From the NCBI GenBank assembly GCA_017548245.1, contig JAFYMU010000105.1:1-19008 (forward strand): 19,008 nucleotides of DNA. The letters run 5' to 3'. Positions 14,342 through 18,322 of this stretch are shown here, one piece after another. This stretch comes from Kiritimatiellia bacterium (GTDB taxonomy: Bacteria; Verrucomicrobiota; Kiritimatiellia; RFP12; DVOR01). Made by a program: the position numbers and the translations under genes. The number at the start of each line of letters is the position of its first letter. Position 1 is the stretch's first letter. Below the pieces are notes generated by a model. That model was given only the letters and a program-made list of their open reading frames with translations, did not search any database and was not told where the DNA came from.

Positions 14342-14917
14342 ATGAAATTACCGAAGAATCCGCTTTTGCGTAAACTTATTCTCTTGCCCTTCTTGGCAAT
14401 TGCAGGTCTTCTGATTGGCGATGTCTACCAACGCTTTACGACCAAGACGCCAGAAGAGGTGTTGATGGCGCTCGGTGCCCAACAGGTCCTCACCCAAACG
14501 ATGACGGTCAATGGACGCAATGTCATTGCCGACATTTGGCGTTTACCCGACTTCGCGTCCTCGGCCTCGTTGCGCAAGCTCAATGCCAAGATTATCACCG
14601 TCGATCGCGAAGTGTACGTCTTCCATGATGACTTTTCCTCTATTCGCGGACAGTGCGCTTACCCCACCGATTTGCCCGCGTGGAATATCCTTTGCGACTA
14701 TGTGATTGATGCCACCCACTCCCGTTTTATCAGTGGTTCCTCGCCCCTCGCCCCTGAACAACTCCTCAATGCATTCGCCACCTCAGCCACAGCCGCAGGT
14801 TGGACGCCGCTCAATACCAATCTCTGGCAAAAAGGCCAGCACACTCTTTTCGTTCATGCGGTTGAAGGAAAGACCGCGACCCATGCTCTCTTGGCCGTCC
14901 AGAAGGAACTCCCATGA
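14342..14917 (+). CDS. Unknown membrane-anchored protein heading the tad operon
   Basis: This is a 191-residue protein I do not recognise. A basic N-terminus (MKLPKNPLLRK) precedes one hydrophobic segment (about 12-26, LILLPFLAIAGLLIG), then a soluble domain of about 160 residues, presumably periplasmic. The soluble part has two cysteines in RGQCAYP and WNILCDYV, about 14 residues apart, and no lipobox. It ends in ATGA shared with cpaB, so it is translated with the pilus genes and is likely a Tad-system accessory. The position would suit an assembly factor or a pilotin-like protein, but that is inference. The first ATG is kept because the membrane segment begins close to it. Confidence 0.75.
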   Translation: MKLPKNPLLRKLILLPFLAIAGLLIGDVYQRFTTKTPEEVLMALGAQQVLTQTMTVNGRNVIADIWRLPDFASSASLRKLNAKIITVDREVYVFHDDFSSIRGQCAYPTDLPAWNILCDYVIDATHSRFISGSSPLAPEQLLNAFATSATAAGWTPLNTNLWQKGQHTLFVHAVEGKTATHALLAVQKELP

Positions 14918-15720
14918 AACAGAAGATTATCCTCCTCCTCTCCGTTGCGACAGGTTTGATTGCCGCCTTCTTAACGGCCTCCTATGTGGCGGCCAAACAA
15001 GAGGCACTCAATCGTGAAAAGGCCGCCTTCCAAGCACGCAACAATAGCGTTGACGTTGTGGTCTTGGCCAAGTCGCTCCCAGCTGGCACAACCTTGACGA
15101 TGGATGACTTGGGCATTCTCTCCTTCCCCGAACGCGCCTTGCGCGAACAGACCATTCGTCCCGAAGGCAACATGGCATTGCGCCTCGTGGGACGCAAGCT
15201 CGCCGTGGGTGTGAGTGGCCGTCAACCCCTCTTGTGGAGCGACATTGAAGGTGGCGCACCGGGTGCAGGTGGGCTCTCCTCCTTGTTGCCGCCCAAAATG
15301 CGCGCCATTTCCATCTCGGTTTCGGCCGCTGCGAGCGTGAGCCAAATGGTTCGCCCCACCGACCACGTTGACGTTTTGGGCACCTTCACCTTGCCGAGCA
15401 AAGAGGTTCCGGGGACGACCGAACTCGTCACCATGACCATTTTGCAGGATGTGCTTGTCTTGGCCACAGGGCAAGAGACGGCCACCACCTATCGCGGCGG
15501 CGACCTCTCCTATTCGCTCGTCACATTACAAGTCACCCCGCACGAAGCAGAGGTGCTGACCTTTGCCGAACAAATGCGGGGTCGCTTAACCCTTTCGCTT
15601 CGCAATCCTGAAGATTTGCACTACGAAAAGCAACCGCAGCAGATTAACTTTGACCAGATTCGTTCCTCCTTGGAGGGGTTGAACGAACGCCGCCAAAAAG
15701 AGTTGTTGCGTAAAAAATAA
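14914..15720 (+). CDS. cpaB: Flp pilus assembly protein CpaB
   Basis: CpaB (RcpC) is a periplasmic, membrane-anchored assembly factor of Tad/Flp pili that works with the outer-membrane secretin. It has 268 residues. An N-terminal anchor (about 5-25, IILLLSVATGLIAAFLTASYVA) is followed by an SAF-type beta-clip domain (VVVLAKSLPAGTTLTMDDLG, about 48-67), then the CpaB core (MRAISISVSAAASVSQMVRPTDHVDVLG) and a C-terminal SLVTLQVTPHEAEVLTFAEQ stretch. It starts within the stop codon of the previous gene (4-base overlap). The FHA-cpaF gene follows after 14 bases, without a secretin gene between them. Confidence 0.93.
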   Translation: MKQKIILLLSVATGLIAAFLTASYVAAKQEALNREKAAFQARNNSVDVVVLAKSLPAGTTLTMDDLGILSFPERALREQTIRPEGNMALRLVGRKLAVGVSGRQPLLWSDIEGGAPGAGGLSSLLPPKMRAISISVSAAASVSQMVRPTDHVDVLGTFTLPSKEVPGTTELVTMTILQDVLVLATGQETATTYRGGDLSYSLVTLQVTPHEAEVLTFAEQMRGRLTLSLRNPEDLHYEKQPQQINFDQIRSSLEGLNERRQKELLRKK

Positions 15721-15734
15721 GGGGAGTAATGGCT

Positions 15735-17441
15735 ATGGACTACTTGATTACCATTGCATTACCTGGCCAATCGCCCCAGCAAATCTCAATGCCGTGTGGC
15801 GCCTATCTTGTGGGCCGCGGCACCGATTGCCCGATTCGTTTAGAAGATTCAAGCGTGAGTGAACTTCACGCGAAGTTGATTTTAACGCCGACCGAGGCGT
15901 GGATTGAAGACGTGGGTTAGTCGAATGGCACAATTGTCAACGCGACGCCTATCACGGGCACGGTTCGCCTGACCGACAAGACGATTGTTTCGGTCGGCAA
16001 CACCATCTTCCGTGTGCAACCCAAACAGGTGCAAAAGCCAACGCCGCCCGTTGAACAACCCCAACCACAGGTCACTGCAACCCCTACGCCAAGCGTTGTA
16101 CCGCAGCCACCATTGCCCCAGGCCGACCCCCTTCCGCAGGTCAACCATCAGGAACGTTCCTTGCGTCGCGACATTAAGGCGCAAATCCATGACGAACTCA
16201 TTCGCCGTTTGGACCTCAAACGCTTGGCCACGAGTTCGGTCTCGGCCGAAGAACTCGCCAAACGCGTTCGTGAAACCCTGCAGACCATTTTGCAAGAGGT
16301 CACGGCACGCAAAGCCTTGCCCGCACAGATTAATCCTGCCGAACTCCTTACGGAAATCTTTGACGAATCCATTCGCCTTGGGCCGGTGGAACGCTTCCTT
16401 GCCGATGACAGCGTAACCGAAGTCATGATTAATGGCCCCTCACAGGTCTATGTGGAACGCAATGGCCGCCTGACGCTCACCGATCAAACCTTCATGGATG
16501 ACGCCAGCGTCTTGGCCGTGATTGAACGCATTGTGGCTCCGTTGGGTCGTCGCATTGACGAAAGCCAACCTTATGTGGACGCCCGTTTGCCAGATGGTTC
16601 GCGTGTGAATGCGATTATTCCGCCGCTCTCGTTGATTGGTCCCTGTATCACAATCCGTAAGTTTGCCAAGCGCGTACTCACCACCGAGGACTTCGTTCGC
16701 TTCGGCACCTGGACACCCGCCATTGCGGCCTTCTTGGCCGTCTGCGTTCGCCTGCGTAAAAACATCATCGTTGCCGGCGGAACGGGTTCGGGTAAGACCA
16801 CCTTACTGAACGTGCTCTCGGGTTTTATTCCCTCCTCCGACCGCATCCTCACCATTGAAGACGCCGCAGAATTACGTCTCACGCAGCCCCATGTCGTGCG
16901 CTTAGAAGCCCGTCCGCCGAACATTGAAGGCAAGGGCGCCGTCACCATTCGTGACTTGGTGCGCAACGCCTTGCGTATGCGTCCCGATCGCATCATCGTA
17001 GGTGAATGTCGTGGCGGGGAAACGTTGGACATGTTGCAGGCAATGAATACGGGCCATGATGGTTCGCTCACCACCGTGCACGCCAATAGCCCGCGTGACG
17101 TCATTAGCCGTTTGGAAACGATGGTGCTGATGTCGGGCGTTGAATTGCCGAGTCGCGCAATTCGCGAACAGATTGCAAGCGCCGTGCAGATTATCGTTCA
17201 GGAATCGCGCCTCAGTGATGGTTCGCGCAAGATTACCGCCATTTCGGAAATTACGGGCATGGAAGGTCAGCAAATTGTGATGCAAGATCTCTTTGTCTTC
17301 CGTCAGACGGGTATTGACGAACAGGGTAAGATCCAAGGTCATCTGACTGCAACAGGCGCAATGCCGACCTTCTTTGACACCTTGGCCGCACGCGGCATCA
17401 ATCTCGACCCCGCCCTCTTCCGTCCCATGGAGGCACTATGA
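15735..17441 (+). CDS. cpaF: FHA-CpaF fusion ATPase of the Tad pilus, with an in-frame TAG
   Basis: CpaF (TadA) is the hexameric secretion ATPase that powers Tad pilus assembly at the inner membrane. Counting the TAG as one residue, the protein has 568 positions: an FHA domain (about 1-92), a proline/glutamine-rich linker (about 94-135) and a CpaF core. The FHA signature residues are G27-R28, S42-x-x-H45 and N64-G65-T66. The core has Walker A GGTGSGKTT (347-355; K354), GECRGGE with E424, TTVHANS with H449, and ITGMEGQQIVMQDLF. TAG (15918-15920) sits at position 62, where GSxNGT normally has serine. The same frame continues intact to 17441. If TAG terminates, a 61-residue FHA fragment results, and CpaF would have to restart, perhaps at GTG 16014, which lacks a ribosome site. 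I prefer ATG 15735 over 15729 because GGGGAG (15721-15726) is 8 bases from it. Confidence 0.85.
15918..15920 (+). other. In-frame TAG within the FHA domain
   Basis: The codons before it read I-E-D-V-G and those after it S-N-G-T-I-V-N, the expected FHA strand and loop. TAG differs by one base from TCG (Ser). It is the only TAG in any real gene frame of the window, and none of the 15 complete genes ends in TAG. Confidence 0.9.
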
Positions 17442-18322
17442 GTCTCTGGTTGATTGGCGCGATTGCTCTCTCTGGATGTGCCACCGCAGGCCTCTTCTGG
17501 TCCTTTGCGATGGCACTCTCGGAGAGTACCAAGACCGCAACGGGCGTCTATGAAGACGAAATGACGAATACCTTGGAGTCAATGTTTCTCTTCATTCCCG
17601 CCAAGAAGTTGGTCGACTTGAGTATTATGGCCGCGGCAACGGTCTTCTTGATTTCGATGCTGCCCTTCTGTCGTGTCACGCCGCTATGGTTGCCCTTCCT
17701 TGGCGGATTAATTGCGATTTTCCCTGCCATCATCGCCTTTCACACGCCCAAATTCATCGTTCGTTACCTCAAGGCGCGTCGTTTGGAACGCTTCAACCTC
17801 CAACTCCAAGAGGCGCTTCCGATGATGTCCAATGCCTTACGCGCAGGGTTTTCCATCAATCAGGCCTTTGAATCGGTTGCAGAGGGTTCGGATGTTCCGA
17901 TGAAACAGGAAATCTCCTTGCTCTTACAACAACTCCGCGTGGGGGTCTCCTTCTCCGATGCCTTAACCGCTTTGGAAGAACGCGTGGGCAGCGAAGACCT
18001 TACGCTCGTCTGCACAGCGATTGACATCGCCCGCAAGTCGGGTGGTAACCTCACCGAAATCTTTGACACCATTGCCGAGACCATCCGTGCACGTCTGCGG
18101 ATCCATCAGCATGTGAAGACCCTCACGGCTCAAGGACGTTTACAAGGCATCATCATCGGTGCGATGCCCTTCTTATTAGGGATTGGCATGATTATCTTTA
18201 AGCCGAGCTTAATGATGCCCTTTATTTGTTCGCTCATGGGCGGCATTACGCTCATTGCCGTGACGGCCCTCGTGGCCCTCGGCGGCCTCATGATTCGCAA
18301 AATTGTCACCATTGATGTGTGA
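17438..18322 (+). CDS. tadB: Tad pilus inner-membrane protein TadB
   Basis: TadB, with TadC, forms the inner-membrane platform on which the CpaF ATPase acts. It has 294 residues and belongs to the type II secretion system F superfamily. Membrane segments lie at about 5-27, 62-100 and near the C-terminus (about 225-290). The T2SSF domain between them shows LQEALPMMSNALRAGFSINQAFESVA (about 128-153) and DIARKSGGNLTEIFDTIAETIRAR (about 196-219), both typical. It starts in an ATGA overlap with cpaF. TadB and TadC are distinguished mainly by order and by similarity to each subfamily. Confidence 0.9.
   Translation: MSLWLIGAIALSGCATAGLFWSFAMALSESTKTATGVYEDEMTNTLESMFLFIPAKKLVDLSIMAAATVFLISMLPFCRVTPLWLPFLGGLIAIFPAIIAFHTPKFIVRYLKARRLERFNLQLQEALPMMSNALRAGFSINQAFESVAEGSDVPMKQEISLLLQQLRVGVSFSDALTALEERVGSEDLTLVCTAIDIARKSGGNLTEIFDTIAETIRARLRIHQHVKTLTAQGRLQGIIIGAMPFLLGIGMIIFKPSLMMPFICSLMGGITLIAVTALVALGGLMIRKIVTIDV

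Follow-up and report, generated by a model that had tools for sequence, protein, structure and literature searches.

The window, a stretch of 19,008 nucleotides from a Kiritimatiellia bacterium, is contig 156 of a draft assembly that comprises 243 contigs with 1,390,891 bases and has a completeness of 75%. It carries a gene for a TadA-type CpaF ATPase with an N-terminal FHA domain (FHA-CpaF), and the frame of this gene holds a single TAG inside the FHA motif (Table 1). Counted from ATG 15735, the TAG is codon 62 and the surrounding reading is E-D-V-G-(stop)-S-N-G-T. The frame is open for 61 codons before the TAG and for 506 codons after it, until a TGA at 17439-17441, and no frameshift or second lesion in the gene was seen on translation. 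The ATG lies 8 nt behind a likely ribosome-binding site, and P0001, a nearly identical database protein, begins at the equivalent methionine; ATG 15729 is an alternative in-frame start. An ORF of 191 residues (14342-14917) that has no Pfam match lies between cpaB and the gene of a penicillin-binding protein.

Table 1. Features at the interrupted FHA-CpaF gene (window coordinates)
Feature	Position	Strand	Evidence
CpaB/RcpC gene, open frame, just upstream of the FHA-CpaF gene	14914..15720	+	PF16976, 89.7 bits
GGGGAG, likely ribosome-binding site of ATG 15735	15721..15726	+	Sequence
FHA-CpaF gene (TadA-type, class III CpaF) with one in-frame TAG inside	15735..17441	+	Reading of the sequence; Pfam; P0001 99% identical over the whole length
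N-terminal FHA part, 61 codons	15735..15917	+	PF00498 (FHA), 27.6 bits, cut-off 20.7, scanned with the 63-codon piece from ATG 15729
In-frame TAG at the serine of the FHA motif G-S-x-N-G-T	15918..15920	+	Sequence; serine in relatives and P0001
Remaining FHA domain, proline-rich linker, and T2SSE/CpaF ATPase	15921..17441	+	PF00437 (T2SSE), 227.6 bits, for the 506-codon piece
TadB-like (T2SSF) gene, open frame, overlapping the CpaF stop	17438..18322	+	PF00482, 68.5 bits

FHA-CpaF as a class III CpaF

One study assigns FHA-bearing CpaF proteins to class III CpaF, with the architecture FHA-IDR-3HB-NTD-CAD (PMC12019362), and another describes KilF of Myxococcus xanthus as an FHA domain fused to a Tad-like, CpaF-type ATPase (PMC8460266). 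The window gene resembles these systems in its N-terminal FHA domain, its proline-rich linker, which can be read as the disordered region, its T2SSE/CpaF ATPase, and its place next to cpaB and tadB-like genes. The PF00498 match before the TAG recurs among the precomputed matches of P0001, and the Walker A motif after the TAG reads GGTGSGKTT. The FHA domain, the T2SSE domain with Walker A, and the Tad neighbourhood of a class III CpaF are thus all present, whereas the frame, read in the standard bacterial code, runs without a stop in all 15 relatives that cover the site but not in the window gene, which as deposited differs from class III CpaF and KilF by the one TAG at the FHA serine. The preliminary description had placed this TAG at the motif serine of an otherwise open gene with intact FHA and ATPase parts, and the sequence bears it out.

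Conservation of the serine

Sixteen genomes of the same genus were searched with a method that reads through stops and counts them, and which is free of the bias of standard-code gene prediction. A serine codon, and never TAG, occupies the site in all 15 orthologues that cover it. In the sixteenth genome (G002) the CpaF match spans residues 390-569 only and falls outside this count; the front part of the FHA-CpaF gene, used as a DNA query against G002, found nothing. A second or third CpaF copy was observed in seven of the 16 relatives (G001, G004, G007, G009, G011, G012, and G016).

The database homologues agree with this picture and with the earlier claim that the serine is conserved: all 109 of the 120 listed homologues that cover the site carry serine, the other 11 having no alignment over the FHA part, although gene prediction for these proteins presumably used the standard code, and stop-bearing copies would then be under-represented among them. 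P0001, which stands for a cluster of 51 members, is identical to the interrupted gene at 561 of 568 residues (99%) and has serine where the window gene has TAG. The six remaining differences all fall within its residues 54-131, in the variable part of the protein, and look like true strain variation. P0009, from a Kiritimatiellae bacterium, is 82% identical and also carries the serine; both proteins cover 99-100% of the query. Homologues with a named source are few (for example, P0009, P0095, and P0111) and come from Kiritimatiellae MAGs. A scan of named genomes contained no close relative among the best 80 loci, the top one reaching 72% identity over a part of the gene, with records of the own genome possibly excluded. 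Two homologues, P0110 and P0111, have M-GSSNGT, within the FHA motif, as their first residues and were considered as natural FHA-less forms. P0111, however, reads like the gene on G005:C19, whose frame extends upstream without a stop; the start of P0111 within the motif looks like a start choice of the gene caller.

Use of TAG as a terminator and the decoding machinery

It had been noted that no gene of the window ends in TAG. The count was reproduced (9 TAA and 6 TGA among the 15 listed gene ends, the TGA of the interrupted gene included), and it reflects a generally low share of TAG. In a sample consisting of the window and 100 further contigs (101 of 243 contigs; 575,713 bases, 41% of the assembly), the 412 ORFs with a stop end in TAA (320), TGA (74), and TAG (18), the last figure including in-gene TAGs and some doubtful ORFs that have no family and may be spurious (L219 and L227 were outside the family scan). 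The share is similar in the relative G004, where TAG ends 11 of 307 sampled ORFs. In the genes for RibE, FliR, a HAD hydrolase, and a flavodoxin-like protein, the terminal TAG follows domains that are complete or almost so; after the TAG of RibE the same frame continues into Pgi, and after that of FliR into FlhB. TAG works as a normal terminator in this genome.

The genome also keeps release factor RF1 (prfA), a search for which had been proposed as a check. The gene on C197 scores 390.8 bits over profile positions 88-356 of 361, which is below the family cut-off of 423 because the gene is cut by the contig start, and it carries the PVT and GGQ motifs. RF1-range matches occur in 15 of the 16 relatives, the exception being G003, which is 50% complete; PVT is present in 12 of the 13 RF1 loci inspected and replaced by PAT in one. 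The GGQ of RF1 usually stands in the form G-A-G-G-Q. All 13 inspected loci of the genus (L300, L302, and L303 not among them) read C-A-G-G-H-G-G-Q-G-V-N at this place. An RF2-range match (about 255 bits) is missing from the own assembly and present in all 16 relatives, with the SPF motif in the four that were inspected; the gap is probably due to incompleteness.

A suppressor tRNA was sought in two ways. All 28 tRNAs detected in the 75% complete assembly were examined with ARAGORN, and none has a CUA anticodon. A pattern search for CUA tRNAs matched the own genome at seven places, the known tRNA-Arg(UCU) being the single tRNA-like one among them, and in eight relatives it again found tRNA-Arg(UCU), in seven of them, and no clear CUA tRNA as judged by eye; two of the relatives' matches (G004:C18 and G009:C5) end in a tRNA-like stretch, likewise judged by eye. 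For pylS, with a cut-off of 178 bits, the best match in the partial genome reached 19.5 bits, and the use of pyrrolysine was rejected as no pylS lies above the cut-off in the assembly. These tRNA and pylS results are bounded by the completeness of 75%, many tRNAs and RF2 being missing likewise.

Other in-frame stops

An isolated in-frame TAG was found inside four genes of the 412-ORF sample: FHA-CpaF and the genes for a sodium:solute symporter, folylpolyglutamate synthase (folC), and an HU-like DNA-binding protein. The symporter gene (L143; G000:C6, 2531-4537, minus strand) has its TAG at codon 193 and is 99% identical to P0121 and P0122, which lack the stop and carry glutamine at the site. 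folC (L149; G000:C12, 2122-3507, minus strand), for which there is one match in the own assembly, has its TAG at codon 231, counted along the piece that was used, and P0241, 99% identical and without a stop, carries leucine there. Both genes have Pfam matches on either side of the TAG, as does FHA-CpaF. The HU-like gene (L139; G000:C2, 4125-4679, minus strand) is cut by the contig end and has a Pfam match upstream of its single in-frame TAG only; its relatives are full-length across the stop, and more distant ones vary at this site. Near-identical proteins were sought for the first three genes, and in each case they were found and lacked the stop.

No clear interior TAA or TGA was found in the sample under the same rule. 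Three candidates of this screen (L176 with TAA, L190 with TGA, and L208 with TAA) score weakly as coding sequence beyond the stop, and inspection by eye put them down as spurious or antisense. A homology screen yielded a pair at L189 with two in-frame stops just before the apparent start and a TAG directly before an ATG at L197, both of which were discarded, as well as a TGA in a poorly matching stretch at L219.

Among the relatives, the symporter gene of the fragmented genome G005 (about 330 contigs; L254, G005:C1) is interrupted by an in-frame TAA where the query has residue 84, so that in-gene stops are not confined to TAG across the draft genomes of the genus. The contiguous G004 (about 40 contigs) was put through the same screen (424,970 bases, 22 stretches, 307 ORFs) and showed no in-gene TAG; its three candidates, all TAA, were attributed by eye to a spurious ORF or to the next gene. 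Outside these stretches, the folC match of G004 (L262; G004:C35) contains one TAG; it precedes query residue 25, the point at which P0241 begins, and is probably upstream of the true start. The search reported one TGA in the match of G014 to the HU-like protein (L283; G014:C22), which a separate alignment did not show. Furthermore, a crude test for frameshifts in 99 gene pairs between the own genome and G004 (33,787 aligned residues) flagged none.

The finding of four in-gene TAGs led to the consideration of a reassigned UAG. From the codon use of the sampled ORFs, 54% of random single-base nonsense changes are expected to give TAG, and four of four arise by chance with p = 0.09, so that the run of TAGs is weak evidence for recoding. 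The residues at the TAG sites of the near-identical proteins differ (serine, glutamine, and leucine), which leaves a single new meaning of UAG unsupported, and independent single-base events suffice. Genomes that decode UAG include those of pyrrolysine users, suppressor strains, and TAG-recoded phages, and they likewise have in-frame TAG in conserved genes. The own genome is unlike them in that RF1 is kept, TAG still terminates genes, neither a CUA tRNA nor pylS was found in the assembly, and no single residue recurs at the TAG sites. On these features, together with the codon-use expectation, reassignment was rejected.

Origin of the TAG in FHA-CpaF

The best explanation is that the TAG arose from one miscalled base in the consensus of a fragmented draft, a reading to which we assign a probability of about 0.6, and we infer that the base call rather than the organism is at fault. 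The FHA-CpaF gene of the living organism is then likely intact and would belong to a known kind, ordinary apart from one suspect base. The serine in P0001 and in all 15 covering orthologues of the genus, the draft state of the assembly, the isolated TAGs inside other genes of the sample, and the stop-free near-identical proteins of the three genes searched count in favour of this reading. The strain would make a full-length FHA-CpaF, predicted to be a hexameric ATPase that drives the assembly of a Tad (Flp) pilus, with an FHA domain that may bind phosphothreonine partners. The clean screen of G004, the TAA in G005, and the lack of flagged frameshifts favour consensus errors, the difference between four of 412 and none of 307 ORFs being small. 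Substitution errors also fit the 99 gene pairs better than gene decay does, as far as the crude test goes, and folC is usually essential, so that with a single match in the assembly its real loss would be costly. Some observations count against an error. If all four nonsense changes were errors and none had been removed by selection, they would imply about 109 random substitutions, or 2.5e-4 per coding base, which is high for a well-covered short-read assembly and possible for a thinly covered draft. Moreover, all four in-gene stops are TAG, and the six other differences from P0001 resemble true strain variation.

The same six differences speak for the main rival, possible though doubtful, namely that the strain has suffered a real and recent nonsense mutation. 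Translation would then stop after a 61-residue FHA stub without a full CpaF, and the likely outcome would be loss of the Tad pilus or its reliance on weak internal initiation further down. RF1 is present and genes do end in TAG, the assembly yielded no further CpaF at E <= 1e-20, and by eye the in-frame starts after the TAG (GTG 16014 and later ones) lack a clear ribosome-binding site, for which reason reinitiation downstream was rejected. As P0001 matches the remainder of the gene at 99% identity, such a loss would have to be very recent. Against this stands that the same kind of recent loss would be required in three more genes, folC included, and that FHA-CpaF showed no frameshift or second lesion and the crude test of the 99 pairs flagged no frameshift. 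Error and fresh mutation were the part of the preliminary description that held, in view of the intact near-identical copies and the use of TAG as a stop. It had stated in advance that TCG in relatives of the same strain, combined with normal use of TAG elsewhere, would reduce the case to one of these two; near-identical copies without the stop and genes ending in TAG were both found. Its two other proposals, a read-through switch and a reassigned UAG, were not supported; the genome-wide count of TAG it had asked about, here covering 41% of the assembly, returned in-gene TAGs and genes ending in TAG alike.

Natural amber suppression, or partial decoding of UAG, would leave all four genes full-length with the help of a suppressor tRNA encoded in the missing part of the genome. 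It is in keeping with an assembly of 75% completeness that lacks many tRNAs, with a sample whose in-gene stops are all TAG, with the rarity of TAG as a terminator, and with the presence of folC among the four genes. We nevertheless regard it as quite improbable, since codon use gives a TAG-only run by chance with p = 0.09, RF1 retains PVT and GGQ, no CUA anticodon was found among the 28 tRNAs, the pattern search gave tRNA-Arg(UCU) as the one clear tRNA in the own genome and in seven of eight relatives, TAG stands between RibE and Pgi and between FliR and FlhB in frame, and the near-identical proteins carry three different residues at the TAG sites. In that improbable case the strain would be a rare natural suppressor that reads UAG in at least four conserved genes, with RF1 still terminating others at TAG, and would show a reassignment of the codon at its beginning, in a single strain. 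Stops inside the genes of draft metagenome assemblies can readily be mistaken for recoding, and the present case, in which TAG is the commonest product of random nonsense changes, is useful as a control. The least credible of the readings, very nearly discounted by us, is a switch in which programmed read-through of UAG decides between an FHA fragment and the full FHA-CpaF. The stop does fall exactly at a conserved FHA residue with the frame open on both sides, but a switch would be expected to be conserved, and the stop occurs in none of the 15 same-genus copies covering the site and is absent from P0001. The truncated FHA domain would, in addition, end inside the fold, the Pfam match of the piece before the TAG stopping at profile position 39 of 67.
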